From assembly GCA_950295325.1 (NCBI GenBank), contig OX485804.1, positions 372,001 to 436,000 on the forward strand: a DNA stretch of 64,000 bases, read 5' to 3'. Positions 21,614 to 64,000 of this stretch are shown one piece after another (the stretch's first letter is position 1; the number at the start of each line of letters is the position of its first letter). Position numbers and translations under genes: made by a program. Below the pieces are notes generated by a model. The model was not told the DNA's origin. It did not search any database and worked only from the letters and a program-made list of their open reading frames with translations. The stretch comes from Polytrichum commune. Lineage: Eukaryota > Streptophyta > Polytrichopsida > Polytrichales > Polytrichaceae.

Positions 21614-21685
21614 GGAGGTATAGCTCAGTGGTAGAGCAATCGGCTGCAGTCCGATAGGTCAGCGGTTCAACCCCGCTTGCCTCCT
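21614..21685 (+). tRNA. trnC-GCA: tRNA-Cys (GCA)
   Basis: A full cloverleaf can be drawn. The acceptor stem has 7 pairs (GGAGGTA with TGCCTCC, one G-U), the D-arm is GCTC AGTGGTAGA GC, the anticodon stem is ATCGG/CCGAT with loop CTGCAGT giving anticodon GCA, and the T-arm is AGCGG TTCAACC CCGCT. The base after the acceptor stem is T, the usual Cys discriminator. CCA is not encoded, as expected for a nuclear gene, and there is no intron. The internal A and B boxes are intact, so it is probably functional. A plastid-derived copy is not excluded. Confidence 0.95.
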
Positions 21686-26460: not shown

Positions 26461-26562
26461 GTGCAACGTCGGCAAAGTGACCACGTAATGGATGCAGTTT
26501 GCAACTCACAAGGGTTTGGAATTATAGTCAGCTTCGCTCTACGGCCTCCTGGGAAGGACCGG
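26461..26562 (+). CDS. Isolated exon-like segment, unknown gene
   Basis: The segment is bounded by an acceptor (TTGCTGCCACTTAG) and a strong donor (CGG/GTATGT), and is open for 34 codons in phase 0. It contains VCNSQGFGIIVSFALRPPGK, which reads like real protein. I do not recognise the family and found no convincing neighbouring exons. It is on the opposite strand to the gene fragments at 27.6-37.1 kb and may be another piece of the same mosaic or the remains of a separate gene. Confidence 0.4.
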
Positions 26563-27218
26563 GTATGTACTCTTCCTTCTGCACAATAGTTCCGATCTAA
26601 TTTAAGTTGCCCACCAGAGCGTCATAGCAGATTATTGGTTTAATGAGGTTACGTTATTGATATGGTGCTCGAGTTGTTTCTGGAAGGTGGTCCCATAGCA
26701 TTTAAGAAGACAAGAGGTGGACCCAATCAATGTGCACATTCAACTCCTTATGGTGGTTATGGTATAACTGGATTCGATATCAAAATTTGACAATGTGTAA
26801 GTGGACCATGTAAAGAATCTTCACTATGTTCAAATTGTAGACATGGTTACAGCTTATAGCCACAGTTTTCTTCTTGCAAAGATTGCAGTTTGGTGTTGAA
26901 TGACGCTCATAGGTGAAGTGAGATGTAGCCCCAAGTTGAAGTGCATACAAGTCTACATTCTGAGGGTTTCAACGTGCACAAGGAGCTTTTTTCATTTTCC
27001 CTGTGTATGTTTTGGAGATTTCTTACGTTTTCCCTGTCTCCTTTCCTAGTTTGTATGTATTCCCTGTGTTTGAATGTATCCTTGTAGGGATATTATTAAA
27101 GATTTTATGTTAGAGGGAAATGGATCGTTTTTATTGTAGGGAAGATACTATTATTTCCCACAATTTTAAGTGATAACAGGGAATTACATTTAGTTCTTGC
27201 AGGGAATTATTATATAGG

Positions 27219-27346
27219 GAAACTTGCACATTAACATTGAAGGGAAATTGTTTGTTTTTCTCGCAGGGCATTTTCATTCATGGAAACTTGCACACTAACA
27301 TTGAAGGGAAATTGTTTGTTTTTCTTGCAGGGCAATTTCATACATT
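27219..27346. repeat. Tandem duplication, 64-bp period
   Basis: 27219-27282 and 27283-27346 are near-identical, each starting GAAACTTGCACA and containing AACATTGAAGGGAAATTGTT. The flanking 26990-27200 repeats TTCCCTGT- and AGGGAA-like words. Confidence 0.9.
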
Positions 27347-27593
27347 TTCGCATTTTCATACAGGAAGACAACAATAAACAATTCGTATTTATTGTTTGAA
27401 CAACAATCTGAATAAAACAACGTTCATTTTCTCGAACCTCTGTAAAAACTCCAAATATAATAGATGCATGAGATCACCAGACCTTTGTAATAGACGCCGA
27501 TTAGGTTCATTAAATGTATCAGTTAAAGCTGTTTTCATGGATGAGATGCGAGTGTCCTTTCCTTCAAGCCCTGCTCATTACAAGAGTAGAGAT

Positions 27594-28645
27594 TCAGAAA
27601 TCCTTGACAAGTCGTGACTTAATATGGTCATCATATAGGAACTGAGAAAATGCTACAAACTTCTGTGCCAAGAACTGATACGTGAAGTTTACAGTGGTAC
27701 TGATGATACCAGTGCCGTGAGTTCGAATTGAATTTGCTTCATGCTTGATACTGATCGTATTGATGTGCTTACGGTATGCTGCACTTGACAACCTCTCTAT
27801 GAAAACCTACACATGGAGCCACAAAATAACTCAACTTCGAAATTTAATGGGTGGAGAACACCTGGGCTCAAAATTTCAAAACTATGATTTAGTACCCAGA
27901 ATTTTTAAACCAAGTAAATCAAGTGCGTTAAAGAAAAAAATCACCTGTGTGTTGAGGTTGTAGGTGTAAGAGGCTACAAAAATGTGGATGTTGCGCATTA
28001 TGTCTAATACATCAATACCTTGTTCAAGTGTCTGGCATGGTAGATGGATGTCATCCAGTTCCAAACCATACTTTTGTTCTGCCAGTTGCCGCATTTCTCC
28101 ATACGTCTGCATTAGCATCCAATGCATATGAGTTCATTTACAGATCCCATTCCACACTTGGTTCACACATACATGCATTACAGTTCAACCCTATGGCACC
28201 TTCAAGATTTTCTTACCTTCCAATTATGCAGAGCCACTGCAGTATGGTTGTAGAAAGCAACGTTGAGATATATCTCCACACGATTCTTTATGTGGATATA
28301 CTTGGTTTCTAATCGCAGAGGCTTCACGTGCACAAACCATGACAAGTCCCGAACCCCTGTCTGCAAACAGGACATACTCAATGAGAGGGATTCACATTAG
28401 AAGGGATAAGCTTGCTTCAATTGACAAAGCAAATTATTCTTCCTCAATGTAAGGTCACCCATTACCAAGTTCCACACAGCACTTTTATGCTTTTTATGAC
28501 TTTCAGAAGAATAAAATGCATCCAAGATAAAGAGGTAAAGAAATACCTTTGTAGGGTTGACATTGATTGTGCCTTTCAGGTGAGCAGAGTGTACGTGTAG
28601 GCGAAGATCAGTCTCAATGTCACGACAGAGTGGTAATAAAACTTC
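27594..28645 (-). pseudogene. WASHC4: WASH complex subunit 4 (WASHC4/SWIP) gene fragment, four exons
   Basis: Four consecutive exons with GT-AG borders, all phase 0: 28645-28547, 28360-28217, 28106-27945 and 27806-27594. They encode LCRDIETDLRLHVH, then GVRDLSWFVHVKP, then [19 protein letters not shown] with [19 protein letters not shown], then [20 protein letters not shown] and DDHIKSRL. This order and spacing match the conserved C-terminal half of WASHC4, a scaffold of the endosomal WASH complex that activates Arp2/3. About 199 residues are present of a protein usually over 1,100 long. The last exon reads into TGA directly after a KDF sequence where the family continues, and no upstream family exons are seen before the Tnp2 gene at 29066. 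It is therefore truncated at both ends, yet has no internal stop. A possible extra exon near 28660-28796 was not assigned. Confidence 0.85.
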
Positions 28646-29065
28646 CTGCTCTTTTCAGTAAGTGTTCCCCACATCCACAATTGAGAAGACTTAGAAACTA
28701 CTTTACAATTAATGTGATATAGCTCAAGCATTATAGCATTTGAAGGTTCAACATCAGCAGACTGGCGCAAAATTCCCTCAACTCCAACCCCTGTTTGACA
28801 GAAAATCAAATCTAATTAGAAAACACATCTTCATATATGCATAAAATCTATGAATCTGTTCTCAAACAGACATCTACAAACTAAGATACTTGAGGTAAAA
28901 ATGAAATTACACCATGCAACTTTCTAAGAAAACAGAGAACTGCTCATGACAATTGAAATCTAAACATTGTCCTGCAATAAACCATATCCAAGCAGCAGTT
29001 GTCTAAGTAATTTGTCTGTATAAATCCACCTAAAATACATACCTTGAGGTAGAACAAATGTTTGT
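28646..29065. other. Gap between the WASHC4 fragment and the transposase gene
   Basis: A minus-strand stretch from 28796 has an acceptor (TCTGTCAAACAG) and is open for about 50 codons, with a possible donor (AATT/GTAAAG) near 28705. It does not match the expected upstream WASHC4 residues and stays unassigned. Confidence 0.3.
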
Positions 29066-32000
29066 CTACACACCTCCCCATGAGATGGGAATACCCTTCT
29101 TGATTTGTGTCACATGATAATTTGACATCACGTACTCTCCAAGGCATCTCCACGAAAGAGGAAAGTCCTTCATTGACGCTTGATATTCCCTTTCTTTGCC
29201 TACAATTTTCCTCAATTGACTCATATGAACCAACCCTACATATGGATCATTTTGATCTCCCTCAACCTCTCCAGCTTCTTCAATTTGTAAGTGCCTCGGC
29301 AGTGACATCCGTCTCATGACACCTAAATTGAACTTCCCTAAACCTTGACTTGCTTCAAACCAATATAATTTCCCAACTTCGGGCCAAGGTGGTAGAACAC
29401 TTCTATGACCATCTGAGAGCAAATGAGACCTGACACTAAGATCACATAATTCATAAGCCACTATTGCGTCTTTCCTATTAGATATCGGGTGTTTAATGAA
29501 TTTGTGAAGTAATTGGTTGACAGGTCGTGTATCATCTCCAAAGTGTTGCCGAGGGTTTGATTTTAAGATTCTCATAGAAGAGAGCTCGGACTGTTTTGCT
29601 GAGCAGCTTCCTTCACTTGATGGTACTTGGTCAAAATACTCAGCACGGAAAAAAACTTCATGTACTCCCATGAACTCATGTACAAAAATACTCATTATTT
29701 TAGCCTTCCAAGTCCAAGACAAGTAGTCCATCTCTTCGCACTCCTCGACCCCATCAGGCCTAACCACTACTAAATCATTCATCTTATAGTGTGTTCCCCT
29801 GTGGATCAAAAATGACATTCTTTCAATCTCGTCCTTGAATTGATGTCCGCTCTCCTCATTCATCAGCCCTTTTTTCCTCCAATATTCTGTAAGGTATGCC
29901 TTTACTGTCTTACTCATTAGCCGTTTGTTTCCACTTTTCCATCCCACGCCAACCCCTTTTCTCTGCAAGACTTCTTTGCATGTACAATTTGGAAGAGTTG
30001 GAAAAAGTTTCCATAATTCAATGGCAGTATCTTGAGACGATGTCACAAAACATCCGTCTGAGTGATCTAAAGAGCATTTATCCATATAGACACCTGTATG
30101 CAAACACATCATTATGTTCAACAAACCCACCATTAATACTTGTTCATGTTGAAAGAATAAGTATACAAAGAATAAAACTAACAATCAATTAAAATGGAAG
30201 CTAAATACCTTCAACTCCATGCCTTCTTGATATAGTCATCAAATGATCATGCAACAAATGAATAGCTCTATGAGGCGGAAGTAACATGTCCAAATCAATT
30301 TGCTTCTGCTTATATAAGGAACTAAATCTTGTTCTCCCATGGTAAGCTGCATATGTAAGTTCATTTTCCTTCTTGTTGGTTTTGATGTTGACATAACTTG
30401 ACACCTTCCTTTCATGCCTAAAGCACCAGAAGATGTCATGTGATCCATGTCGTAGTACATCGTCCAATATCTCACCATTCCCTACAATACAAACAATGAA
30501 ATCAATAATCACTACTATCCAACATATGCATGTCACAATAATAACATAATATAAAAGAAAGCGAAATTAACACATAAAAAGTTACAATGCAATATTACCA
30601 GCTACGTGTTCAAGGATGGATCCATTAGGTCCATAAAGCTCTTCCCAATGGACCCTCCAAGCAGCTAGATATTCCCTTGCAATGGTTATTGCCTCAAATG
30701 TCCACCCATGTGTTCGAGAATGGGTAAAGAATATTCGAGAGATTTCCACTAAAATCAGCCCCAAAAGACAAAACTCTTCATCTTTTTTGTAACCCAGTCG
30801 ATCCAAGATATATGGTAAACACCACTGTATGAAAAGCACAAACTCTTCTGCTTTCCAATATCCAAGTCTATCATTGATGCCAGTAGGCCATCTAGCACCG
30901 AGGTCAGTAGGTCTATAAGCACTAACTTCTACTAAAGCTTTCTCAAGAATATCACCTCTTGAGTGGCACTCCTCTTTTAGTTTACAAACATATTTTTTTT
31001 AAATGCACAATGGTAAGATGTGCATCACATCATAAACCAAATCCAACGAGATATTAAACTCATACATGTAATATAGTCGCCAAAGCTTTGAAATACCAGT
31101 GATGCACATCTGTCTTGAATCAACTTTCTTCAAGTTATGTACCTGATACCATCAAAATCAAATTCATAAATATGATCAATGAAAATAAGCTAATACAACA
31201 TAATTTGAACAAATTGAACTATCTATCCTATAATAAAGAACAAAATGTTGATTTATATGCTAAACTTTGATAACTTACTTCAGATATAAGATTCTTCATA
31301 CTCCGCAATGGTGGTGGATAGCATGCTTGTCTTGGATTGTCATGGTAAACAACTCTCCTTTCAAATAAACCTTCTACCATCACATCCCTTCGGCATGCAT
31401 TATATCCTTTATCTTTTAATCCACCAATTTTTGTCTGAGCGGGATGATCACCTGTCCAAAGCATTAGCATCCCTCTTAGCCTAGCCTTCCCATTCTCAAG
31501 GATTGGCAAATTAGAGGAGATGAGATGTTGGGGGTAGTTGTAGTCCACCAAAAAACCAGTTGTAAAAAGGGTCTCCAAATCTCGAAACAATGGCTCTAAG
31601 AACATTGTGAGGATATGGTCTTCGGATTGCTTGATAATCTCCTTCGAGGAAGCCGGAATAAAAACTAGAGGAATAGGGCCAAGAATATTATTCTTTCCAC
31701 CATTCATGATTTCAAGTTCAACTGTCCATGTATTCTTGAACTTTGTAGAAGCACTCAGAAAACCATCCCAATGACCTGCTAAAGCAAAATTCTTGGATCT
31801 CCCTAATTCAAACAAACAGTAGACTCACAATCAGTATTTATAACAAAACATGCCATTTATAACAAAACATGCCAGAATCTCGGCGGTATTGTCACAATGT
31901 GTGCTAGCTCTAAAGAGATGATGATGGTGTAGTTATAAAGAATGGCAGGTATGGACATCAGCCCTTGGTGTCAACAACCTTTTTTTCACTCAATTGAGTT

Positions 32001-33530
32001 TGCCTATGTTGCAAAATATCCGCGAATGGTTTTAGAGGTCACAAGGTAAGGGCAAGGGTACGGCAAGGGCTGCCACTCTCTGCATCTTATAGGACTCCTT
32101 GCACAAGTTTAAAGGAAAAATATCCGAGTTGAAGAATGAGTAAAGACCTAAAGAACTACACTAAATTCTGGTAAGCCACAGATTAAATCTCCAGTGCCCT
32201 GTCGTCACAATTAAAAATACATCAGCCGACCAAATCATCACAAACTAGACCTTAAAAACATAAACCATAAAACATATGATAAGACCAATTGACATTGGTC
32301 TTGAGCTCAGAGTTGGTAACCCAGCAAGCAAACAACTATAAAAATAGTTCTGGAGAGTCAAACAAGGCACATGTACACAAGCTTATTAGCTAATAAACAA
32401 AGTAGAGTTGAAACTAACCTGAACAAAAGTCTTCTTACTGTGTACAGTTGTAGAGCACGCCGCGCATCTAAAGATGTACTCTTGAGTATTTTCATTCCAC
32501 CCATGTAGTAACTCTTCACAAGCAGAGGGAAAAGCACGATAAACTTGTGCACACTCTTCATTGGCACATCTCACTGGGAGCTCCCACTGTCGATCAGGAT
32601 CCCAAAATGCTTGGTTCATTCGAAACTTGGATCCATCCCAAAATTCAGATATTTTTGAAGGATGACTGTCAGATTCGATGCTACGCCACTCATTCCGATG
32701 CCTCCAGTGCTCTAGAAACTCATGACATTGTGTTCTATTCTTACACAATTGCTCCAACTCTCCTATGACAGAGATGTAATCGAATGGAAGAATGTCTTTT
32801 CTCAATGTTTGACAAATAGAACATTTCTCACCACACACCCGACAACTTCTTTTAAGTTTAGGTCCATTTAAGCATAGACACTTGACAACCAAGGGTCCCT
32901 CATAATCATCTTCTACACTAGGAACTAAGAGTTCAGGATAATGAGGTGAACCTAGACTTCCTGTACATACCCTCCACCTTACAGGCTTCAACATCCCTTC
33001 TTCTTCATACATTTTTAGCAATTGATCATATGAGTTAGGAATCTCTACCTCCTCTCCAATTGATCCTGCATACTTAAATAGCTCTCCAATACTCATCGAT
33101 TCATACCTTGTATTAGTGTTGATGCCAAACACTCTTTGTAAAATTTTCTCTTGTAGAGACAGTGATGCCTTACCCAAATCCAACTCGGCTTGGAGTAAAA
33201 CCATTTGAGTCTTCAAAGCAGACTCCAAGGTTGAAAAGTTTTGAGATGGTGCTGGAATCTTTTCTTCAACGCGTTCTCCATTTTCTTCTACGCCAACTGA
33301 TTCTCCATTTTCTTCTACACCAACTGATTCTCCATTTTCTTCTACGCCAACTGATTCGACTCCACTAATTTCAACTTCTCTGAGAACTTCTGGATATTGT
33401 TGGAAAGCAACATCTCCTGACGATTCTCGCCTTTTCTTGTGCCTATAAAATGACGCTGAGGATACTTCTCTTCCTTGACAATTTGGAGAAAGCATCGAAT
33501 TTTTCTCTTTGCCCTACTACTTGATTCCAT
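29066..33530 (-). pseudogene. Tnp2/Transposase_21-type transposase (CACTA/EnSpm group), decayed
   Basis: Five exons join in phase: 33530-32419, 31802-31279, 31142-30599, 30481-30209 and 30093-29066. Features in order are a Cys/His N-terminus (NCQGREVSSASFYRHKK), an ESVGVEENG triple repeat, Cys pairs (CRVCGEKCSIC; later CANEEC and FRCAAC), GHWDGF, the TGDHPAQTKIGGLKDKGYNA block, YDVMHI (the Tnp2 Asp-Met-His core), HGWTFEAI, and GSILEH. The last exon (342 codons) includes MNDLVVV and a WKAKIMSIFVHEF stretch with a weak BAH-like look. It would be a nuclear cut-and-paste transposase. Lesions: a likely frame change near 33495 between the first ATG and the main frame, a one-base deletion near 31790 after GDPR, and an in-frame TAA at 31001-30999. 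Terminal repeats of its element were not found. Confidence 0.75.
33274..33354 (-). repeat. Three 27-bp coding repeats
   Basis: Three near-identical 27-bp units encode ESVGVEENG three times in the first exon of the Tnp2-type gene, an in-frame minisatellite. Confidence 0.95.
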
Positions 33531-34862
33531 CCTGCAAACAATATCCAGGTCACATCTATCAGGCACTAAATTAAGCACATCTATCTTAAGGCACCTTATG
33601 TGAAATTTCACATATGTGAAATGAGTTGGACTACACTAAATTTTCTGAAGACAAGTAAATTTAAACTCTGTGATTCTTCAAACAAACTATGTACACTAAA
33701 AGTCATCAAATGCCATCGACAGATGGTCACTATAAGTACAGCATTTATTGCCAGTCCACTCAGTATTTTGCCACTGGATGTCAAAGGGAAAAGAATATGA
33801 TTCTGAACTCGGAAATTTATAAAGTATTTATCCTAGGTCCAGACTATTAGTTACTACCCTTAACCCCATTTCAGTAGTTAAGGATTGAAGCTTGTCTTAA
33901 TTCCTACTCTGTTACTTGTTGCCCCCATAAATTGCAAAATTGGGTATTGAAGGCAGTGAAGATTATTAAGAGAAGTGTACAGCAGCTCACCTGATTGTAC
34001 TCAAACTTGGCTGCTATTTGACCGCTGCTGTGGAGAAGAAATTTTACTGAGTGTTTAGGTAGGTTTACAAGCTGGGGCATTGGAAGGGGAGAGCTTGCTG
34101 CAGATTGTTAGTCAGGTTGGGATGACCTCTGTTCATCTATCAAATAGAAGACAACCCACAAACAGTAAGTTGAAGAACCATTGATCAAATGGCCTTCTTA
34201 CTAGAGGAGTGTCTAAGAACCATTCCACAACATTACTAAGATATCCAGTCTTGACAAATTGGAATCAAGGTCAACCAAACATGAATCTTAATACTAACTT
34301 ACAAATTAGATTGGAGCTTACCACATCTGAAGGTGCCATCAAGGTGATCTGCATGGAGCAACCCACCAACTCAGACTTGATGACACAAAATTTCCCTGCC
34401 ATCTCAGACTAATGTGTAATCAACTCACAAAAAGATTACAACCCCAGAAGAAGTCAAGGGTTGATGTCCTTTAATCTGAATGAACCAACAATGCGGAACT
34501 TCCATGGAGAGCTCCCAGAACTTTCAGAAAATATATATGGTAGGAGCATAGTCATAAAACTTCAATATATTTTCACTTTATTTTCATCAAAGTATACATA
34601 TATACGTGAAATATTATTCCACTTTTTATAAGGTAGTGGTAAATATGCATTCCACATCATAAACCAAATAAGATATCATCTCAATACTTGTTAGGGGATT
34701 TGTACAAATCATCATGCACCCTGTATCAACACACCCTGAACCCTTAAGGGTAAGGATGTTCACATGCGTATAACTTGTGCCACCATAACTTTAAGCAAGA
34801 ACATTAACTTTATATGTACACTCTTATTTTCAGTCTGGACTTTTGAAGGTCAAGTTAATTAC
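33531..34862. other. Region between transposase start and HISN3 fragment
   Basis: On the minus strand 34045-33997 looks like a short exon, with acceptor TTTCTTCTCCACAG and donor CAG/GTGAGC, and one frame contains SGQIAAKFEYNQ. Its gene is not recognised and it could be a leader exon. The expected downstream HISN3 exons are not present here. Confidence 0.35.
34622..34682 (-). pseudogene. Short relic resembling exon 3 of the Tnp2-type transposase
   Basis: The plus strand reads CACATCATAAACCAAAT preceded by GGTAAATATGCATTC. This mirrors 31011-31045 (GGTAAGATGTGCATC, then CACATCATAAACCAAAT), the segment coding the YDVMHI core. The similarity covers about 45 bp and is diverged, so it is an older second copy or a local duplication. 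Confidence 0.5.
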
Positions 34863-36124
34863 CTCATTCCTTCCACATCAACCCCATGCACAAGGAACTC
34901 ATCACAAGAAGCGGATAGCATGGCTAAAGTGGCTTCGTTCAAAACAAGTTCACTGAAGCATTGCCAACGGTCTGTCACAACCATATATTGACCATCCTGC
35001 CCCATGAGACCCAAAAAAGGTTGTAATAATGCATGTATTTGAGAGTAGCATGATGAAAGCTGTTAAAAGTGTCCAGAAATCTCAGCACGTAAGATGAAGC
35101 ACATCAACAAAAATATACAAATTCTTCTTCATGATCGGTGAAACCCCTTCTGCCCACCACACCCTAAGGAACACGTCTGATAACAGTGAAATAGTCTAGT
35201 ACAATATGTTTTGTCTAAAAAGATATTGTTTAGCAGATTGATCATGTTCCAAGGAAAAAATGTGAACAACCCTTGTGATTTGATCAAAAACAAAGAATCT
35301 GCAACAGGATAGTATTTTCATTTTTGAGGCCCAAATCTTACAGCAATTCACTGGAAACCCATTTACACTGCATAAAAGGAAGTGTAGAGTTAGCAAACAT
35401 TTTTTCTACAACTGAGATCGAGAACCAATCTTTCTTTCCCAGTCAGCTTCACTAACTCCTTTAGCCTCTTGTCATCCATTTTTCCATCTCGAAATACAAA
35501 CTGCACAAGATAACCTGACCGAGTTTGTTGAGCTTGAATTTCTTAAAATTGACACACTATCATCATATCACGATGATACTCTAGAACATATTGGGTTTTA
35601 AGAGGGCACATTTGAAACCCCTGTAACCCAAAAGAAAAATGTTCCTAAGATGTCTATCAGAATGCCCAGCTTTAATATCCATCACTAGAATTTATTTCCA
35701 GCATTGTTATGCTTACAAACGAAGTAAAAATTACAAAGCATTGGAATGTTTACATCACAGATTCATTTATACGTTTTACAGACAATTACACATTTGCATA
35801 CCCAGCAGAGATCTTCAATACGCACCCATTAAAAGAATCTCTTATTAGCAAGATCTCTCTTTCTGAGTACAAGAGTAAGAATTTCCGCCAAACTCTCAAC
35901 AATACTTTCTAAAACTTTTATGAACCTTATCCATAAACTGCAGAGAGAAAATCACATTTCAAAACAACTCACTGGGTGCTGCCGACAAATCCACCTGAAG
36001 CACAAACTGAAACAGGTGAACAAGGGATCATGGCATACAGATGTCACAATGACGTGACTTGCTCCAGCCTCCAGATAAGTTCTGGCATTATCAGTATTCA
36101 CGCCACCACCCAATTGCAACCCAC
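34863..36124 (-). pseudogene. HISN3: HISN3/HisA-like gene fragment (ProFAR/BBM-II isomerase), three exons
   Basis: Exons 36124-36039, 35500-35399 and 34996-34863 join in phase. They encode [12 protein letters not shown] and GASHVIVTS, then [13 protein letters not shown], then VVTDRWQCFSELVL and DEFLVHGVDVEG. This is the middle of the plant phosphoribosylformimino-AICAR-phosphate isomerase, the plastid enzyme of the fourth histidine-biosynthesis step; the family Gly-rich strand and the LDLSCRK, VTDRWQ and HGVDVEG blocks are all clear. About 107 residues of roughly 260 mature ones are present. The N-terminal half (transit peptide, CIDIHKG region) and the C-terminal YAGGV region were not found on either side. 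No internal stop is seen and splice sites are canonical, though the donor at 35398 is weak. It is a partial copy rather than the working gene. Confidence 0.85.
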
Positions 36125-37059
36125 CTGTAGTCATCATGAACATCATGTCATCATGGAAGAAGCGAGTTAGGAGCTCTTTACACTAGAGTTCAACTTGAGA
36201 GCTTGAACTTGCAAGTTTTGGGAGTTTGACAAGCTTGCATTCAAGCTCAAACTGTTGAGAGCTTCATCAATCTTCAAGATCTCAATAATTTGAGCAAGTG
36301 CAAAATTATAACTATTCTGATAAACCTGCAATACTAACAATTATTCTTTGCCGGCCAAATCCTTACTTGCTGCTAGAGTATCTTGCATAGTTCTCAAATG
36401 TTACTCTTATAGAAGCAAACACAGGTATCTTTTATGATACAGATCAGCAAACCAGATCACCAAGATAGGCACATGCAAAATGCACCTCTCTTCGGCATTC
36501 CATGCCCTTCCAGGAACAGATTGGCAGGCCTCCTTCACTTTCTGTAAGAATTCACCCAACAAAGATTCTTAGAAATAGCAGAGCATCCCTGTAGACAAAA
36601 ATGTACAAACTGATATTTATTGATCATCACCTTAGAAAATCCTCAAACAGTACCAAGAGGGCCACACACCATAGCCTATCCAATCTATACACACTCTTTT
36701 CCATGTCTTGACAGCACTCTTCTTATCTTCTCAGTCTAGCCTCCACCTCATTTGTTCAAGGTACACATAGCCTAAATCTGGTAAGAATATTAGAGCTGAT
36801 ACATCACAGATTTCTTGCTTAAAGTATGATGAGCTTATTCAATTAGACTTGGGCAGCCTAACTTTGTTCAAGCGATTTAGACGTACCCCAGGTTCCACAA
36901 TGGAATTGCTCGGCCGTCAGCTCCAAGAATGAACTGCTCCTCTGAAAACACATGGAGGTTGTCTTCAACTCTCCAGTTGGTCACCAGAAGTGCAACTTGA
37001 CAAAGCACTTACACTGTCATTTCAAGATAGTGACTGAGGGAAAGAAAGAAAGTAGATAC
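36125..37059. other. Gap with possible decayed exons
   Basis: On the minus strand 36951-36890 has an acceptor (GTGTTTTCAG) and a donor (GGG/GTACGT). A wider reading there contains NLHVFSEEQF, loosely like the kelch segment expected after the 37060-37121 exon. Another acceptor-flanked open stretch lies at 36548-36490. Neither can be assigned with confidence. Confidence 0.3.
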
Positions 37060-37121
37060 CTGACTTCCCGCAAAGTGTCACAGAAGCCACCAAAGAGGAT
37101 GAGTTTGTGCTTGTATAGAAT
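37060..37121 (-). pseudogene. Single exon of a KLHDC4-like kelch-repeat gene
   Basis: The 62-nt exon has acceptor AATCGTACAG and donor GTCAG/GTATCT and encodes LYKHKLILFGGFCDTLREV. The LILFGGF core followed by DTLREVR is characteristic of the KLHDC4/At5g50310-type kelch proteins. Neither the preceding SGHRM exon nor a clear following YYNDL exon is visible, so this is an isolated piece. Kelch motifs are short, which limits certainty about the exact family. Confidence 0.65.
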
Positions 37122-38150
37122 CTGTACGATTCAAGCACGACTCAAGAGCTTCAAGAATTTGTGTTATGAAAATCAAGTAAACCCTAAACCCATAATGTCC
37201 AGGGAAATCTGCAGACATTATGAAGAGAGGCATAATAGCTTCGGAGGCTTCTGATGAATCAAACCAGAGAAGCATAACATGCAGGGAAGGGGGGGCTACG
37301 GAGCTGATTGTAGGCCCTAGACATGTGTCAGCTGGAAGGAACTACACGCATGCCCTCCTTGGATGAAAAAAGGATGAAAAAAGGATGAATATGTGACCGG
37401 CGAGGATGTTGGCAGGGGGGATCTTGGATGAGAGGCACGCTACCCCTCTGAGGCCTGTACCGGGTATGTGCCCACTCTGGATCATCATTCCTCTCCGTTC
37501 AAGCATAGAGAGCTCTCTGTCTGCGCGGCAGGATGGCGCCCAATTCTATCTGCCCGATTAACCTGTTGCAAACATGCAGCTGGCTTCAGAGGATCGCGGT
37601 GTCGTTGTGTCAGCCTCATCTCGCAATCCTTGTCTATGGGAAGAATTGGAGCAGTGATCATCCACTGTAGATTCACTGCTTATTGAAACTCACAGGCTTG
37701 TCGAAACCATACATCAAACTCGGTTTGCATGCGGACAAAAAACGGCATCAATGCTTCACTCACCAGGAACTGGCGAGCGATCCTTGTATGTAGGAAGAAT
37801 TAGAGGCTGACAATACATCCTGCTTTGCGAACTTCAAACACACCATTTAGACGTCTACATCATTGATCCGGTTTCGAGCTTCGTGGTATGATATCCTCTT
37901 GCCGGTCCCGTTGGCCGTCTGTGTTGGTCCGAGTTTGCTTCTTGTTTTGTTTTGTTTTGTTTTTGTGATTGGTGAGTTTTCTGAAAATGAGTATCTATCT
38001 GTCTTGGACTTGTGGTTTGCCATGCAAACTATCTTGAGACTACAAAATGTTTACGGATGAAACAAAACGAGTTCCCTTAAATCGTTGAGCTCACTTTTAA
38101 AGAAAATCAACTCCAGTCCGAGAGGCGATACAAGACATCTCTTGGTATTG
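37122..38150. other. Non-coding stretch
   Basis: GC-richer than its surroundings at 37290-37700 but without a supported gene. Small ORFs on both strands overlap at 37468-37686. A segment at 37885-37970 (GGTATGATATCC...TTGTTTTGTTTTG) resembles 39288-39360. Confidence 0.4.
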
Positions 38151-38283
38151 CAAGATGAGATTGAGAAATAGGTTTGATCCTTGGTGAAGGAAGGAGGGAG
38201 CGAAACAGGAGGGATCTGAATTCCGAGTGAGGATTCCGAGTGTTGTGGATTTCCTGTTTTGGATCTTGTTTTTTTTTGGAGTT
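38151..38283. repeat. Duplicated block, short copy
   Basis: Starts CAAGATGAGATTGAGAAATA and ends CTTGTTTTTTTTTGGAG. It is almost identical to 39201-39427 except that it lacks about 95 bp in the middle. Confidence 0.9.
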
Positions 38284-39200
38284 TTTCTTCTTCTGTTTAA
38301 GATGTTCTAGAGGCCCCTCATGGTGAGGAGGTTGCATCGATCATGAACCTGCTCCATGGAGGAACTTCTGTGTAACTCTACACGCATCTTTTGTGTTAGT
38401 TAGGGTATTTCATTTGCTGACGAGCTCCATGAGGAGCAGGGTCGATGATCTCACACGAATTCTTGCAACTCATATAGGGCAGAGAACATACATAGCACAG
38501 GATTGATAACATTTAGATATATTTGTAGAGATATGGAAGGGGCAACATTGTTACCCTTTCTGCGAGGTATCTCTGGAAATTTACTCAATGTTTTCAGCCA
38601 ATGAGCCTAGAGGGAATTTTGTTTGTGCCAAGAAGACATTAGCAATCCATCCTTTCTTTGTTAAACACGACAACAGGAGTAAATGGTATGCTTGACAGGA
38701 CTCTAATGGTATGGCTGAGTAGATACTCACCAGCTACAGAGTAATTGCTCAAAAGATACTAAACAGACTGTCTAAAGTTCTGGTAGGCTATTCTCAACTT
38801 GACTGTGCAGGTGATGACCGTTAAATGATGTCCTATCCATCTCACTTTGTTAACAGTTTTGTGTAGGTTTGCCGATCTTTCCTTCTCTAATCCTTATTTA
38901 TCATTTTTCTGTCCGATGAACATCCTATGCAATTCTTTATCATTGTCCTACCTTTTGGTCTTAACTGTCTTTGTGCACACGTGAGATTTGCACTGCTGGG
39001 GATGTAGGATATTTTCTATGCCTAAATTCATCTTAAGATTATTGCATTGCATCTGTAGTTTTAATTATTATTCTTGAAGCCCTTTCAAATAAATGTAACT
39101 GATCTTTTTCTTACTCGTTTCTACAGACAACTATAAGCTATGCAATTGGAGCGCTTGGAAGGTGAGGCTTCTATTGGTTCCCGATTTTGGTAGGCCTGGT
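38284..39200. other. No gene seen
   Basis: AT-rich sequence between the two duplicated blocks, without a supported ORF. Weak inverted similarity links CCTGCTCCATGGAGGAA (38348) with the complement of 38424-38443. Confidence 0.35.
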
Positions 39201-39427
39201 CAAGATGAGATTGAGAAATAGGTTTGATCCTTGGTGAAGGAAGGAGGGAGCGAAATAGGAGGGATCTGAATTTGAGGACCGGCATGAGGTATGATATCCC
39301 TCTTGTGGTTTGTTCGATTTGTGGTTCTGTGCGAGATTTGCCTTTTCTTATTTGTTTTTGTTGTTGTTGTGTGAGGATTCCGAGTGTTGTGGATTTCCTG
39401 TTTTGGATCTTGTTTTTTTTTTGGAGT
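39201..39427. repeat. Duplicated block, long copy
   Basis: Same ends as 38151-38283 with an internal 95-bp segment (GAGGACCGGCATGAGGTATG...) present only here. That segment begins and ends near GAGG/GTGAGG, so it could be an inserted or a removed sequence. Confidence 0.9.
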
Positions 39428-39709
39428 ATACACATGCCAAGAAACAGCATCTGGAGAACCGTCCAATCCTCCGTTGCGTAGAAGTGAGCTATCATCTTGC
39501 GACTGGTCCATGGTGAGAGGAGTATCTGGACATGACAAAGATTGAACCACATCTGAGAGTACATGTCTCAGAGTACTTGTGTACTTATGTCACCCTTTCG
39601 TTGTGATTCCAAAACTTTGGCAGAGACATCTGCACTTGGAGCTCTGCAATCGGCCCATGTGAATTAGGTAACCAGGAAGGGACATGAATTACATGTATAT
39701 ATTCCTACA

Positions 39710-39731
39710 AGCACAATCACGTGATTGTGCT
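39710..39731. promoter_or_regulatory. 22-bp perfect palindrome centred on a G-box
   Basis: The core GCACAATCACGTGATTGTGC reads the same on both strands and is extended by one A/T pair at each side. Its centre CACGTG is the plant G-box, bound by bZIP and bHLH factors as dimers. It lies about 450 bp upstream of the kinase start, in a plausible promoter. Function is inference. Confidence 0.5.
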
Positions 39732-39905: not shown

Positions 39906-40183
39906 TTGTGACCCCACTTGTTAGGGATTCTTGTAGGGAATAGTGAACATGTAGAAGGGGACGAGCACGCGTATCGCGAAATTAGACGCTTGCCGGATGG
40001 AAAGGCAACCCAAGGAATCGGCGGGCAGAGAGGGAAGGGGTGCCCTTTGGAGCGCTTCTCTTGTCGACAGGATATCTTCAAAATTCGCGGTGTTTATGGA
40101 ATAGTGGAACTGAAGGCTGGAGTTTCATCGCTGTTATTGCCTCTACTTTTTTTTCAACGAGCAGGTCTCCATTGGGCCCAAAA

Positions 40184-41821
40184 ATGTCAACCTTCGTGAG
40201 GTGGTTGTTTCATGCCATTGGACTTTGTTCCAGTTCTTCTCTTGAACCAGATTACTTGAAACTCTCTGTTGACTGTGTGCAAGATATCAAGAATGTGTTA
40301 TGTGCTGGTCATGAATTGCAATTAAACGGGAGGCAGTGTCAGGATCTTGCTTCGAAGCTTGAAATTTTCGTGGAGAAGATGCAAAACCTAGTCTTAAATG
40401 TTGAAGCATCAGGTTTGAGATCCTTTTATCCAGCTTTGAGGAACATGGACAAAGTCTCGGAGAAAGCGAAGTTGCTTGTCAATGACTGCTCCAAAGAAGA
40501 TTGGTGTAGAGAATCCATGTTTCAGATCCAGAATGAAGAAGCATTTGGAGAGATTTTGCGGGAGATAGGGTTATGCGACGAGCAAGCTAAAGCTATAAGA
40601 ATGCTTGGCCAATTGAAAGAGCAGAATCGAGTCAAAGATCTCGGTCTGCCTTCAACAATTTCACCCGCATCGGAGACAAATGACCTAGTTCTAGAAGATC
40701 GACATACATTGAAGGAGAGACTTCAAGACATGGCCAAAAGCAGTACCTCATCAGATAAGCATAAAGAGTACCTTGTGAGATTCATGTTGAGAAAACTAGA
40801 AGTTTGGTCTGGAGAGCAAAGTATTGAGAATTTGGACCCATCTGATCCAATAAGTTTGGGTACCATTTCAGAAGTGCAAGATACACAGGACAATGCATTG
40901 TCGGGCGAACAGGAACTGGCGTCTAAAGTGCAAAGAATTGAGAATGTGGGCATGTCTGATGCAATAGATTTGGGTTCAGATTCAGAATTGCAACATGGAT
41001 GGGAGAATGCCAATTTAAAAATCATTGGAGGCGGAGCACATGGAGCTGTTTTGTCCACCGAATGGCATGGCATCCCCTGCGCCAAGAAGGAATTTATTGT
41101 GCAGGCCAGTCACATTTTTCAGAGGGAAGCAGCTGTGCTGAGATGCCTCAACCACCCGAACATTGCCAAGTTCTTCTTTTGTGGCACTGAAAACCAGAAA
41201 TGTTTCATTGCGATGGAGCTAATGCATATGAGTCTGCATGAATTGATCAAGGAACGTAAAGGAAGGCCATTTTCGACTGATGTAGCAATAAACATCATTT
41301 TGCAAATCGCGAATGCAATGTACTATCTACATAAACAGGGGATTGCACATCGTGACCTCAAATCACTTAACGTGGTGATCAACAAAGTGTCAACCACTCC
41401 ACACCCTGGTGACAAATTTCAGGTGAAGTTGGTTGATTTTGGGTTGTCAAAGACAAAGGTGGAAGCTTCCAGGTCCAACCCAGTGTCTATAAGAAATTGT
41501 GGCACCACAGCATATAGAGCACCAGAGGTATTTTCCAAGGGAGATGATCCTGAAAAGGTGGTTTGGTTCAAGGCGGATGTATATAGTTTTGCTTTAATCT
41601 GCTCAGCAATTTTGTCCTTGAAGGAGCCCTTTGAAGGTGTAGACACGAAGACCTTGATCTGCCAGCTGCGCAACGGTGTGAGGCCACGTCTCCCACAAGA
41701 TTGCCCCCAAGAGTTGGCTGCACTCGTGGAAGAATGTTGGAATGCAGAACCTAAGTCACGACCCAGTTTTCTAGCCATTCGCACAAGGCTGGAGAAACTT
41801 GTTTTCTCGAGTGAGAATTGA
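40184..41821 (+). CDS. Protein kinase (TKL-like) with N-terminal helical domain, 545 aa
   Basis: The frame is open upstream to 40040, but ATG 40184 (MSTFVRWLFHAIGL) after AAAA is the likelier start. Residues 1 to about 180 are predicted helical (e.g. CQDLASKLEIFVEKMQNL), recalling the four-helix regions of plant MLKL/RPW8-type proteins; this is inference. Residues 230-275 hold a 38-residue imperfect duplication (IENLDPSD.ISLG / IENVGMSD.IDLG). The kinase domain spans about 277-540: glycine loop GGGAHGAV, lysine in CAKKEF (301/302), HRDLKSLN (389), DFG (418), YRAPEV, KADVYSFA and the final SRPSF arginine. All catalytic residues are present, so activity on Ser/Thr/Tyr is expected. No intron interrupts it. 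It is the only clearly intact non-transposon protein gene here. It could belong to a large, lineage-specific kinase family; the precise subfamily is unknown. Confidence 0.9.
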   Translation: MSTFVRWLFHAIGLCSSSSLEPDYLKLSVDCVQDIKNVLCAGHELQLNGRQCQDLASKLEIFVEKMQNLVLNVEASGLRSFYPALRNMDKVSEKAKLLVNDCSKEDWCRESMFQIQNEEAFGEILREIGLCDEQAKAIRMLGQLKEQNRVKDLGLPSTISPASETNDLVLEDRHTLKERLQDMAKSSTSSDKHKEYLVRFMLRKLEVWSGEQSIENLDPSDPISLGTISEVQDTQDNALSGEQELASKVQRIENVGMSDAIDLGSDSELQHGWENANLKIIGGGAHGAVLSTEWHGIPCAKKEFIVQASHIFQREAAVLRCLNHPNIAKFFFCGTENQKCFIAMELMHMSLHELIKERKGRPFSTDVAINIILQIANAMYYLHKQGIAHRDLKSLNVVINKVSTTPHPGDKFQVKLVDFGLSKTKVEASRSNPVSIRNCGTTAYRAPEVFSKGDDPEKVVWFKADVYSFALICSAILSLKEPFEGVDTKTLICQLRNGVRPRLPQDCPQELAALVEECWNAEPKSRPSFLAIRTRLEKLVFSSEN

Positions 41822-57680: not shown

Positions 57681-58978
57681 ATGGCACAAAAGATAGATAG
57701 AAGTCACGTTTCTAAATTTGACAGAACCTATTTTAACATTTGGAAACACAGACTTACATTAATTTTCAAGGCAGAAAAATTATGGTCATTGGTTGACGGA
57801 ACAGAAGTAAAACCAGTAGCACCTACAGCAGCACAGATAACTGTTGGAGCTCCTCCTTTACCTGTTGCAGGAGCAGGAAGCATTAGTGCGTGGGAGGATA
57901 CTAGAGATACGCTGGCATTTAGGGATACGCTGGCTTAATGAAATTAACAATCATTAACAATCATTAACAATTGCCTTGATAATAGTGTAGTCTCCCATAT
58001 CCAATCATGCAAGACAGCAGCATTAGCATGGACATAATTAATAAGACTATTTGAATCTCAAGATGCCGTGACCAAAATGTATCTAAAGGATAAGTTGCAT
58101 ACCTTAAAGATGAGAGAAAATGATAGTGTCACCAAACACATTCATGTTTTTCGAGCCCATTTGGAACAACTGTTTGCCGCAGGAGCAGCAGTTCCAGATG
58201 ACGAGGTTGTACTCACTTTAACGAGAAGTATGCCTCCAAGTTATAGAACGTTCATAAGTTCTTTAAGAAGACAACTGAACTTGACATTACAGTCTTTGAT
58301 TACAGATTTAATACAAGAGGAAAATCTTATGAAAAATCTAAATCTAACTTCAGATAATACATCAGCCCTTTACACAAGGAAAAATGGTCCTAATTATAAC
58401 AGGAAGCATGTCTTTAATAGGAATCCTAAGAAGTTCTTAAACTCAAAAGCAGAGAGCAGTTCTAAAACCTTTGCAACGAAGAAACCTTTCTTCGGCAAAA
58501 AATGTTTTTACTGCAAAAAGTATGGACACATGATCAAAGACTGCAGAACTAGAATAGTTGTTGAGGCTATTAATAGAAACAATCAATCTAATGTGGTTGC
58601 AAAGGAGCATAAACTTTATGTTGCTGCATTAATAGTGAAGGAAGAATCAGATTCTGCTTGGTATATAGATATCGGGGCTACACAACACATGTGTTTTGAA
58701 AAGGAATCCTTCACAAATTATGAACCATATAATAAACACCAGCTTGTCTACCTTGGAGATAATTCTACACATAGAATTCAAGGAAAAAGAAGATGTCACT
58801 GTTACGCTTTTGAACGGAAAAATAAAACAAATACCTGATGTTCTTTATATTCCCGGACTAAGAAAGAACTTGTTTTCAGCTAAACAATTTGACAAAGTTG
58901 GTGGAGAACTTCATATCAAATCAGGCATCTGCACATTAACCAACCAATCAGGAGACATGATTGCGACGTGCATGTGGT
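57681..58978 (+). pseudogene. Copia gag and protease, broken
   Basis: Gag starts at ATG 57681 (MAQKIDRSHVSKFDRTYFNI, then WKHRLTLIFKAEKLW). It is disrupted at 57906-57975 by small tandem duplications (GATACGCTGGCATTTAG-like and AACAATCATT units) and stops; the frame resumes from about 58000 and is open from 58068. A CCHC zinc knuckle, CFYCKKYGHMIKDC, lies near 58504-58545. The protease site reads WYIDIGATQHM, so the residue after Asp is Ile where Ser or Thr is normal. One extra A in 58784-58788 shifts the frame before the conserved DVLYIPGLRKNLFS block. Coding ends at the 2.5-kb insertion. Confidence 0.9.
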
Positions 58979-61529: not shown

Positions 61530-64000
61530 AACCTACCCAAAGTGTAGTAGCAATTCCTGCCATTACACATGATAACAAAGCTGATTTATGGCATCAAAGA
61601 CTTGGTCATATAAGTAAAAAATGACTAAAACAAATATAGTTAATGTCAAAAGGCATTGAAACATTTGATGAAAACGAAATTACTTTATGTACACCCTGCA
61701 TTCAAGGCAAGCAGCATAAAGAAAAAATTCCTAAAGAAGGCCAGGGGTCCATAGAGCTACTGAGCTCCTTGGAATTGTACATTCTGATATATGTGGTCCT
61801 TTACAAACAGGAACACATTCAAGATGTAAATATTTCATCACATTTATTGATGACTTATCCATATATTGTTATGTCTATCTTATTATGCACAAGTCTGAAG
61901 CATTTGATAGATTTCTCTACTATAAAAACTTTGTAGAGAAGCAAACCAATCATAAAATTAAGGTTTTGCGATCTGACCGTGGAGGAGAGTATACATCTCA
62001 TGAGTTCAATACCTTTTGTGAAAAAGAAAGTATTCAAAGAGAATTTACAGCTGCATATACACCTCAACAAAATGGTGTATCAGAAAGGAAAAATAAAACA
62101 TTAGTAAATGTTGTTTTAGCTATGTTGTCACATGCTAACTTATCCAAAGTGTTTTGGGGAGAAGCACTTTTAACAGCAAATTATCTACAGAACAGAAGTC
62201 CAACAAAAGCTATAGATGACTACAAAACTCCTTATGAGTTATGGTTTGGAAGACAACCAAATTTGTCCTATCTTCGAGTTTTTGGGTGTAAAGCATATGT
62301 CTTTGTTCCCAAAGAAAAGAGACAAAAATTAGACTCACATTCTCAGGAATGTATCTTCTTTGGGTATAGCGAAGAATCTAAAGCCTACCGTCCTATGGAC
62401 ACTACTAATAGAAAAATAATCATATCAAGAAATGTGATATTTAATGAAAACTTTGACAATGTGCATAAGAACATACATGAAGCAGAAGAGATAGAAGAGG
62501 CAGAAGATTTGTTACTTCATGTTGACTTCTTCAAATCAAATCCCCCAAATTTGGCCCAGCCCACATCGAATGTTCCTCCAAGTCAAAGTATTCCTTTACC
62601 ACAAATACAGGTTGTTGCTTCACCTCCAACTGGGCAGCCTCTGCAAAATCAACAAATACCAATCAACTCCACAAATGTGGGAACACAACAACAACAAGGT
62701 TCACCTCCTCAAAATGACTTGATTGAGTCTTCAATAGAATCACATAATAGTGAAAATTTGTATAATGAGGAAGTAATTTCACATGAGATAAATCAAATTA
62801 CTCCTCCAAGTTCTTCTCGACCTAAACGAATTATTAAGTCTTCAAGAAGGTTATTAGAATCTATACAAGGAAGACCACAATCTAATCAACCTAAGAAACC
62901 TTACTTAAAGAAACATCATCAAGCTAATGTAGCCAATATATCCTTACAAGCTCCTCAAACAATAAAAGAAGCTTTAGAGAGACCTGATGCTCAAAAATGG
63001 CAAGATGCCATTAATATTGAATTAAATTCTTTGAAGAAAAATAAAACTTGGAAGCTTACCCCTCTTCCTTCCAATAGAACCCCAATCAGCTCTAAGTGGG
63101 TCTTCAAGATTAAGACCAATGCTGATGGTACTATTGATAAGTACAAAGCAAGGCTTGTAGCAAGAGGATTCTCCCAAGTTCAAGGCATTGACTATACAGA
63201 GACATTTTCTCTTGTGGTCAAATTGAACTCTATTAAAGTGCTATTAGCACTAGCTACACAATATAATTTTGAAATACATCAGCTAGATGTCAAAACAACA
63301 TTTTTAAATGGCAACTTAGATGAAGAAATCTACATGAGTTTACCCGAAGGCTTACCAATACCTTCAAATTCCCAATTAGTATGTAAACTTGCCAAATCTC
63401 TTTATGGACTTAAGCAATCTTCAAGAGCTTGGTATCAACGCCTTGATAGTTATCTGCTTCTTCAAGGCTACACAAGGTTAGAATATGATGCCAATATATA
63501 TATAAAAAGAGAAAATGACCAAGGCTTTACAATACTAACAGTCTATGTGGACGACTGCATGGTTGTAAGCAATAAAACTGCATTTATTCAACAAATCAAA
63601 GATATTATGCAACAAGAGTTTGATATGTCTGATGAAGGTGAAATTCATTATACCATTGGCAATGCCATCATAAGGAATCGGCAAGAAGGTTGGTTGATCT
63701 TACATCAACAAAATTATTTGACATCTAACCTTCAAGAGTTTAACATGTTAAATTGCAATCCTTTAAGCACACCTATGCAATCAGGTGTTCGTCTCAGCAA
63801 AGAAGATTGCCCTAATACAACAGAAACATGGGAAATTACACATCAATATCCTTATTCACAAATTGTTGGAAGTTTAATGCATGCATGTGTAAATTCAAGA
63901 CCAGATTGTGCTTATCCTGTAAACAGCTTAGCACAATACCTAACAAATCTAGGTCCAACACATATTCAAACCTTGAAGCGGACAATGCGCTACATTAAAG
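61530..64000 (+). pseudogene. Copia pol: integrase, reverse transcriptase, RNase H (5' broken, 3' cut by window)
   Basis: The integrase zinc region is visible (LWHQRLGHIS ... CTPCIQGKQHK), with TGA at 61622-61624 and TAG at 61637-61639 in frame, both explainable by C-to-T change, and a frame change near 61745. From 61771 the frame is open for 743 codons to the window end. Integrase catalytic residues follow: Asp in VHSDICGP, Asp in LRSDRGGEY and Glu in NGVSERK. RT shows KWVFKIKTNADG, QLDVKTTFLNG, SLYGLKQS and the YVDD active site at 63544-63555. RNase H begins with GSLMHACVNSRPDCAY and is truncated. RT keeps its catalytic Asp pair; the integrase DDE residues are also intact. Confidence 0.93.

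Follow-up and report, generated by a model that had tools for sequence, protein, structure and literature searches.

Host-gene fragments inside transposons have been described in several settings. In plants, the Pack-CACTA and Pack-TYPE elements are described as non-autonomous (PMC8903248), and in soybean the CACTA element Tgm-Express1 carries five captured gene fragments (PMC1947982). Among animal Pack-terminal inverted repeat (Pack-TIR) elements, microhomology at at least one breakpoint was reported in 190 cases (67.6%; PMC8277862). Work in yeast has documented donor-templated insertions and foldback inversions at breaks, the latter arising where a broken end primes on itself (PMC11724301). 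A model by Catoni et al. for the origin of Pack-CACTA elements, cited through a review, starts from terminal deletions in neighboring elements (PMC13317346). Whether transposons pick up genes by gap repair, by template switching at replication forks or by fusion of neighboring elements is still debated. Here we describe a 12,742-bp insertion in the genome of Polytrichum commune that combines a CACTA-like transposon with pieces copied from about 14 other loci. It lies in a 64-kb stretch of contig OX485804.1 (C2:372001-436000), called the window below.

Our reading, with a probability of about 0.72, is that the insertion represents one copy of a cut-and-paste transposon, low in copy number and CACTA-like (CMC-type), and that stepwise break repair, templated by DNA and switching between templates, has rewritten its body. 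In common with Pack-CACTA and Pack-TYPE elements, it is a relative of TIR transposons with host gene fragments whose parents lie elsewhere in the genome (PMC8903248), but it differs from Pack-TYPE elements in that one end was found, transposase exons are present and some 14 sources contributed. A single CACTA-type element likewise holds several captured fragments of host genes, introns as well as exons, in the case of Tgm-Express1, which has, however, inverted repeat ends and proven chimeric transcripts (PMC1947982), whereas the window copy has one end and more and shorter pieces. Gap filling independent of transposition and breakpoint microhomology would be shared with animal single-copy Pack-TIRs (PMC8277862), while the many successive template switches and the apparent loss of one end would not. 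The model of Catoni et al. likewise has copies that lost one end by aberrant excision, but a new element arises in it from two whose losses complement each other (PMC13317346); in the stretches examined around our copies, no partner element with the opposite end was found. The yeast insertions resemble this locus, where the break likewise bears inserts from distant loci and a short stretch of flank copied in inverted orientation. They differ in that the break is experimental, the kingdom is another one, and 5–7% of insertions in the mutants described are complex, with at least two fragments (PMC11724301). We would file this apparently one-ended CACTA-like element as a variant of Pack-TYPE-like capture by template-switching repair, that is, as known gene shuffling in an extreme form. 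The host not being a flowering plant, the case would widen the range of such gene shuffling.

Limits and Composition of the Insertion

The limits of the insertion were set by comparison with empty sites. In the genome searched (408 Mb in 64 contigs, seven of them chromosome-sized at 42–78 Mb), the 77 bases to the left of window position 26977 recur six times on C2, at 0.50–0.72 Mb. In both empty sites that were read among these six flank repeats (L017 and L018), the match to the window up to 26976 passes directly to a match from 39719 onward, and the sequence reads AACGTGATTG. The insertion occupies window positions 26977-39718, with a target duplication of ACGTG or CGTG (4–5 bp). Alignment to donor and copy loci gave 36% of it to the element; 57% came from low-copy loci, host genes included, and 7% stayed unassigned. 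The source loci, about 14 when the repeat pair C1:52/C6:10 is counted once, lie on five of the chromosome-sized contigs, C1, C2, C3, C6 and C7. The features, from left to right in window coordinates, are as follows.

26972-26976: left target site duplication, ACGTG (at least CGTG), from empty sites L017 and L018
26977-27364, minus strand: element left end, CACAAGGAGC..., then subterminal DNA with AGGGAA-type repeats (by eye); boundary common to seven genomic places
27373-27601, minus strand: RhoGAP-gene fragment, part 1 (C1:22.67 Mb, 91%)
27601-28751, minus strand: WASHC4 fragment, four exons with introns, inside the RhoGAP capture (parent C2:4.0546 Mb)
28747-28900, minus strand: RhoGAP-gene fragment, part 2 (present also in the C5 and C6 copies)
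28918-33585, minus strand: transposase gene region with weak Tnp2 similarity (reading frames, Pfam, copy alignment)
33586-33638: junction filler, with two palindromes with 9-bp arms at 33597-33622
33639-34584, minus strand: SMARCAL1-like (SNF2) gene fragment, second part (C6:42.345 Mb)
34617-36307, minus strand: HISN3 fragment, three exons with introns, inside the SMARCAL1-like capture (parent C7:10.959 Mb)
36316-36874, minus strand: SMARCAL1-like gene fragment, first part (C6:42.344 Mb)
36875-37022, minus strand: unnamed-gene fragment, gene strand provisional (C1:77.654 Mb, 98%)
37017-37149, minus strand: kelch-gene fragment, 133 bp (C6:27.383 Mb, 93%)
37152-37285, minus strand: BUD31 intron piece, 134 bp (99% to C3 sibling copy L009; 89% to the BUD31 gene, C3:23.24 Mb)
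37289-38298: low-copy repeat pieces (C1:52.32 / C6:10.19 Mb)
37537-37778: tandem-array piece interrupting the low-copy repeat (C3:25.95 Mb)
38299-38378: piece from C3:49.31 Mb (donor alignment)
38377-38476: piece from C2:9.486 Mb (donor alignment)
38478-39204: piece from C6:25.203 Mb (donor alignment)
39201-39430: low-copy repeat C1:52.32 / C6:10.19 Mb, second visit (donor alignment)
39435-39569, minus strand: exon-bearing acyl-ACP thioesterase gene fragment (C7:22.296 Mb)
39562-39662: piece from C6:24.625 Mb (donor alignment)
39710-39731: perfect 22-bp palindrome AGCACAATCACGTGATTGTGCT across the right boundary, longer than any other zero-spacer palindrome in the 64 kb of the window
39719-39723: right target site duplication, ACGTG (empty-site comparison)

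An earlier note on this DNA had described a mosaic of host-gene exon blocks on the minus strand around a transposase, and every block that it named was located where it had placed it. Its count of three host blocks proved too low against the roughly 14 sources, and the extent that it gave, to 37121, too short. The exon at 26461-26562 that it had tentatively added belongs to the target-site flank, which recurs on C2 with no insertion. The right-hand side of the insertion, where a right terminal repeat would be expected, is made up of 6.1 kb copied from about a dozen loci; further captures, RhoGAP and then WASHC4 inside it, lie near the left end. The two visits to the low-copy repeat of C1:52.32/C6:10.19 explain a self-repeat of the window.

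Captured Gene Fragments and Their Parents

The four WASHC4 exons (28649-27601, minus strand) match Pfam WASH-7_mid at E 1.2e-91, and the parent, at C2:4.05 Mb, has around the copied region frames that match WASH-4_N, the start of WASH-7_mid and WASH-7_C. The three HISN3 exons (36126-34863, minus strand) match Pfam His_biosynth (E 3.5e-12) and, at E 2.1e-41 yet under the curated cut-off, the NCBIfam model hisA_euk. Their closest solved chain, 9fcf, is named as this isomerase (E 3.4e-38). The copied exons match residues 93–199 of its 274 residues, and the flanking frames of the parent at C7:10.96 Mb match residues 20–94 and 216–269. These matches bear out both exon sets as the earlier note had read them. 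Since both parents lie elsewhere with exons on either side of the copied stretch, and DNA from other sources adjoins the blocks in the window, neither outcome that the note had named as fatal to its view (missing exons contiguous with the blocks, or no complete parents elsewhere) occurred. Another copy with the same junctions, which it had proposed to look for, is present at C2:5.35 Mb: this copy B has both WASHC4 junctions of the window copy, 27899-28374 being missing from it.

The piece that the earlier note had put down as a KLHDC4-like kelch exon (37149-37017) is 93% identical to a place on C6 where the neighboring frame matches Kelch_2, but the piece itself has no Pfam match. The name SMARCAL1-like rests on exon reading, the SNF2 match of the donor (PF00176) being slightly below the cut-off, and the C1:77.65 gene gave no Pfam match. 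Introns are kept in all three multi-exon pieces (WASHC4, HISN3 and SMARCAL1-like). A second, partial copy of the SMARCAL1-like stretch was seen at C2:67432964-67434116 (L016); it matches 33639-34584, and the searches made gave no match in it to 36316-36874.

Most donors are 90–99% identical to the captured pieces, so that the sources, the boundaries, the target duplication and the empty site can all be read, and rules of junction formation and strand choice become testable. Across the WASHC4, HISN3 and SMARCAL1-like pieces, captured exons differ from their parents at 22/1178 sites and non-exon DNA at 126/3099 (p = 2.5e-4), with exon limits set by eye. As judged from these sequences, this is about what would be expected if only the parents were constrained, with no sign that the captured exons are used; they look like passengers. 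The possibility that donors had already diverged before capture was also considered, and we make no strong claim for it, the exon to non-exon ratio being near the expectation for constraint on the parents only.

Element Ends, Transposase and Class

The left end, CACAAGGAGCTTTTTTCATTTTCC, was found with up to three mismatches at seven genomic places (the window, copy B, C4, C6, C3 and C5 twice); a reversed-pattern control found none. Because both C5 places lie in one identical stretch, these seven left ends have six different flanks. The copies differ from one another by 1–5% (left 272 bp, 15 pairs), and the element is, as predicted from its sequence, a low-copy DNA transposon copy. The left end, which is conserved, lies 3' on the coding strand; the opposite end differs between copies. 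That the family has copies with one end found and differing right sides points to breakage at one end as the way in for foreign DNA.

Both ends are present in a sister subfamily. Sister copy L051 (C2:3.99 Mb; L051:994-5803) ends in an imperfect inverted repeat of 28 bp, CACAAGG...CCTTGTG (86%, E 0.004), and is flanked by a target duplication of 4 bp, ATCG. L052 (C3; to 9186) shares the right end of L051 with the left end missing, and L053 (from 745) has kept the left end with the right side missing. In the 64 kb of the window, no right terminal repeat was found for the window copy, the form of such a repeat being known from this sister subfamily only. Among the loci examined, the CCTTGTG-type right end matched only in L051 and L052, with none around the seven left ends (2.5 kb at one C5 place, 9–20 kb at the others and 64 kb for the window). 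An inverted-repeat scan of 25–39 kb gave no pair at the element ends among the longest 25 of 87 pairs. Of the element ends that the earlier note had advised looking for, only the left one was found in the window copy.

Sibling copies contain further repeats. Nested short repeats at L011:771-1332 and L009:2985-3523 (about 560 and 538 bp) are 96–99% identical at at least 39 and at least 37 places, respectively, and appear to be young families. A 1.85-kb stretch, L009:6005-7849, is 98.7% identical to C4:29.047 Mb, representing either a capture or a flank duplication. Frames in the same genome were read by eye as a TIR-NB-LRR gene.

The main transposase open frames of the window copy, all on the minus strand, are at 33513-32389, 31824-31231, 30998-30585 and 30184-29069, these coordinates being open-frame limits rather than mapped splice sites. 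In the last exon, three sibling copies share with the window copy an open frame of 372 codons; 31877-32387 had no match among the copies compared. PF02992 (Tnp2) scores below the Pfam cut-off of 28.6 bits both in the window copy (17.8 bits, E 0.002) and in sister L052 (12.7 bits, E 0.071). The frames proposed earlier as a Tnp2-type transposase are present, but their assignment to that type is weakly supported, and because the match falls below the cut-off, we call the element CACTA-like and not a member.

CACTA (EnSpm/CMC) elements have terminal inverted repeats that begin CACTA and a target site duplication of 3 bp (2–4). The ends found here are CACAAGG, not CACTA, although the first three bases, CAC, agree with that type, and the target duplication is 4 bp in L051 and ACGTG or CGTG in the window copy. 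Pack-TYPE elements have two terminal repeats and no transposase gene. The window copy has intron-bearing host gene fragments with parents at other genomic sites, as they do, but no right repeat was found to enclose its host DNA, and predicted transposase frames are present at 33513-29069. Helitrons make no target duplication, insert between A and T, and have a Rep/helicase protein or TC...CTRR ends; here, ACGTG is duplicated at the insertion and the left end reads CACAAGG.

Junctions and the Right Boundary

Captures are nested within captures. WASHC4 lies within the RhoGAP capture, HISN3 within the SMARCAL1-like capture, and, in sibling copy L009 on C3, a piece from C4:23.27 Mb within a BUD31 capture. 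We read 19 source switches, of which 7 overlap by 1–8 bp, 2 are blunt, 6 have 1–12 bp of filler and 4 have 17–53 bp; the boundaries are limits of local alignments that may be off by a few bases, and the overlap counts stand without a chance expectation. The WASHC4 junctions overlap by 1 bp and 5 bp. Introns were considered as the cause of gaps between donor pieces and rejected, as GT-AG ends were seen in 0/9 of the gaps read (four SMARCAL1-like, one HISN3 and four in the TRAP-beta piece of sibling copy L010). One of the TRAP-beta gaps of L010, 1,148 bp long, represents a jump, with an overlap of 2 bp, rather than splicing.

At the end of the insertion, the 22-bp palindrome of the right boundary repeats the flank in inverted form, and the empty sites have its flank half only. 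The palindrome has its center in the target duplication, as would be expected from a cut of the flank at the element end followed by extension from that point. By a wider hairpin criterion (arms of at least 10, spacer up to 8) the window contains five hairpins, one of them on the right boundary. In 20 kb of copy B there is a single such hairpin, at a distance of 13 bases from the break.

Orientation of the Captured Pieces

All eight identified host-gene pieces are in the sense orientation relative to the transposase (8/8; two-sided sign test, 0.008). They are the RhoGAP, WASHC4, SMARCAL1-like, HISN3, kelch, BUD31 and acyl-ACP thioesterase pieces and the TRAP-beta piece of copy L010. With two provisional pieces, one from the C1:77.65 gene and one in L009 from the neighborhood of a DUF707 gene at C4:23.27 (which may lie outside that gene), the count becomes 10/10 (sign test 0.002). 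Six sources without a readable gene strand are outside the count: C6:25.20, C6:24.63 and C2:9.49, for which extended flanks and Pfam were used, C1:52 and C3:49.31, for which reading frames only were used, and C3:25.95. A possible counter-example, also uncounted, is a weak LRR frame in L009 6005-7849 that would be antisense. We regard the sense bias as suggestive, not proven. It might arise if capture were coupled to transcription, with the repair strand annealing to a coding strand exposed by an R-loop or to nascent RNA. Host genes would then be copied unspliced and always sense to the gene of the element, which would explain the 8/8 sense pieces (10/10 with the provisional ones). We consider such coupling rather unlikely, but if true, it would make strand bias a signature of transposon gene acquisition. 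Among the papers listed in the literature searches (titles and abstract openings, with most subscription papers not covered), no description of a sense-only capture bias was found.

Origin of the Mosaic

Under the template-switching reading, breaks within or at the end of the element would start repair, and repair strands would hop between templates at a few bases of homology, skip forward within a template, sometimes return to the same template and add fillers. Newer captures would land within older ones, as WASHC4 in RhoGAP and HISN3 in SMARCAL1-like. On the right, a cut at most a base or two from the duplication would leave the flank end to fold back on itself before joining. Because of this foldback on the right side, at least the last step was probably made in place and not by transposition, so that part of the repair was probably done in place. 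Several observations weigh against this reading. There is no overlap at 12/19 switches, and 7% of the insertion has no source. The window has four more hairpins of the same class outside the insertion, no hairpin accompanies the break of the C6 copy, and the right breakpoints of the other copies are mapped by loss of homology only. The Tnp2 match is below its cut-off. Divergence from the donors varies between 0% (in two short pieces) and about 20%, which makes a single event unlikely, and some of the listed donors may not be the true ones. In addition, the non-exon DNA of the WASHC4 piece (27601-28751) is 5.6% from its parent, above the divergence of element copies; this fits badly with capture after the split from the C6 copy, which is without WASHC4.

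The patchwork is, in our best reading, neither a product of retroposition nor a Helitron. The alternative closest to the template-switching reading is stepwise Pack-TYPE capture elsewhere over several rounds, after which a finished 12.7-kb element with a degenerate or substitute right end transposed here. The two share the capture step, are compatible for the older pieces and differ on where the right side was built. Stepwise capture has been described in maize Helitrons (PMC3288121), and capture in rounds would suit the unequal donor divergences, the WASHC4 capture common to the window copy and a copy elsewhere, and the 134-bp BUD31 piece that is 99% identical in the C3 sibling copy. However, no right terminal repeat was found in the window copy, at its right boundary the flank itself is folded back, and among the right-half matches listed, none but the window itself spans two sources. 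We regard this origin as possible but doubtful. Reverse transcription of nascent, unspliced transcripts with template jumps, giving a conserved 3' end and a variable 5' end, would account for the 8/8 sense pieces and for a conserved end on the 3' side of the coding strand opposite an end that varies between copies. Against it are the introns kept in the WASHC4, HISN3 and SMARCAL1-like pieces, a conserved end without terminal poly(A), the jump without splicing across the TRAP-beta gap of L010, and the terminal inverted repeats and 4-bp duplication of sister L051, as in DNA transposons; we find it improbable. A LINE-like 3' end, a candidate prompted by the conserved 3' side and the sense bias, was rejected on the lack of terminal poly(A) and the inverted repeats of the sister.

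An assembly artefact or contamination might be suspected from the very many short pieces from several chromosomes. The WASHC4 junctions recur, however, in an independent copy, the empty sites define exact boundaries, and the donors were found in the same genome, the one genome searched. Most pieces are 1–20% from their donors (two short ones being identical), so they are not simple chimeric reads, and we consider this explanation very unlikely. In maize, Helitrons typically carry mosaics of several genes with their introns. Their stepwise capture (PMC3288121), noted above, would also suit a Helitron origin. Yet with a target duplication present, sister ends of the form CAC...GTG and transposase exons with weak Tnp2 similarity, we consider a Helitron origin very unlikely. 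Overall, the earlier interpretation is partly supported. Acquisition by a DNA transposon of genomic pieces with their introns, as against retroposition, holds, while neither of the two styles that it had offered is supported: the target duplication speaks against Helitrons, and the right end of a regular Pack-CACTA element with two inverted ends was not found in the window copy.

Target Locus and Other Features of the Window

The insertion sits in a kinase-gene locus. A protein kinase frame lies in its right flank (39986-41818, plus strand), with a weak MLKL-like N-terminal match under the cut-off, and the insertion separates this frame from the exon-like frame at 26461-26562 (plus strand) in the left target-site flank, which may be an exon of the kinase gene. 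Further away, a tRNA gene at 21614-21685 (plus strand) is the sole Rfam match in the window at the gathering threshold, and long plus-strand frames at 61735-63999 and 58038-58835 resemble, by eye, a Copia-type polyprotein.

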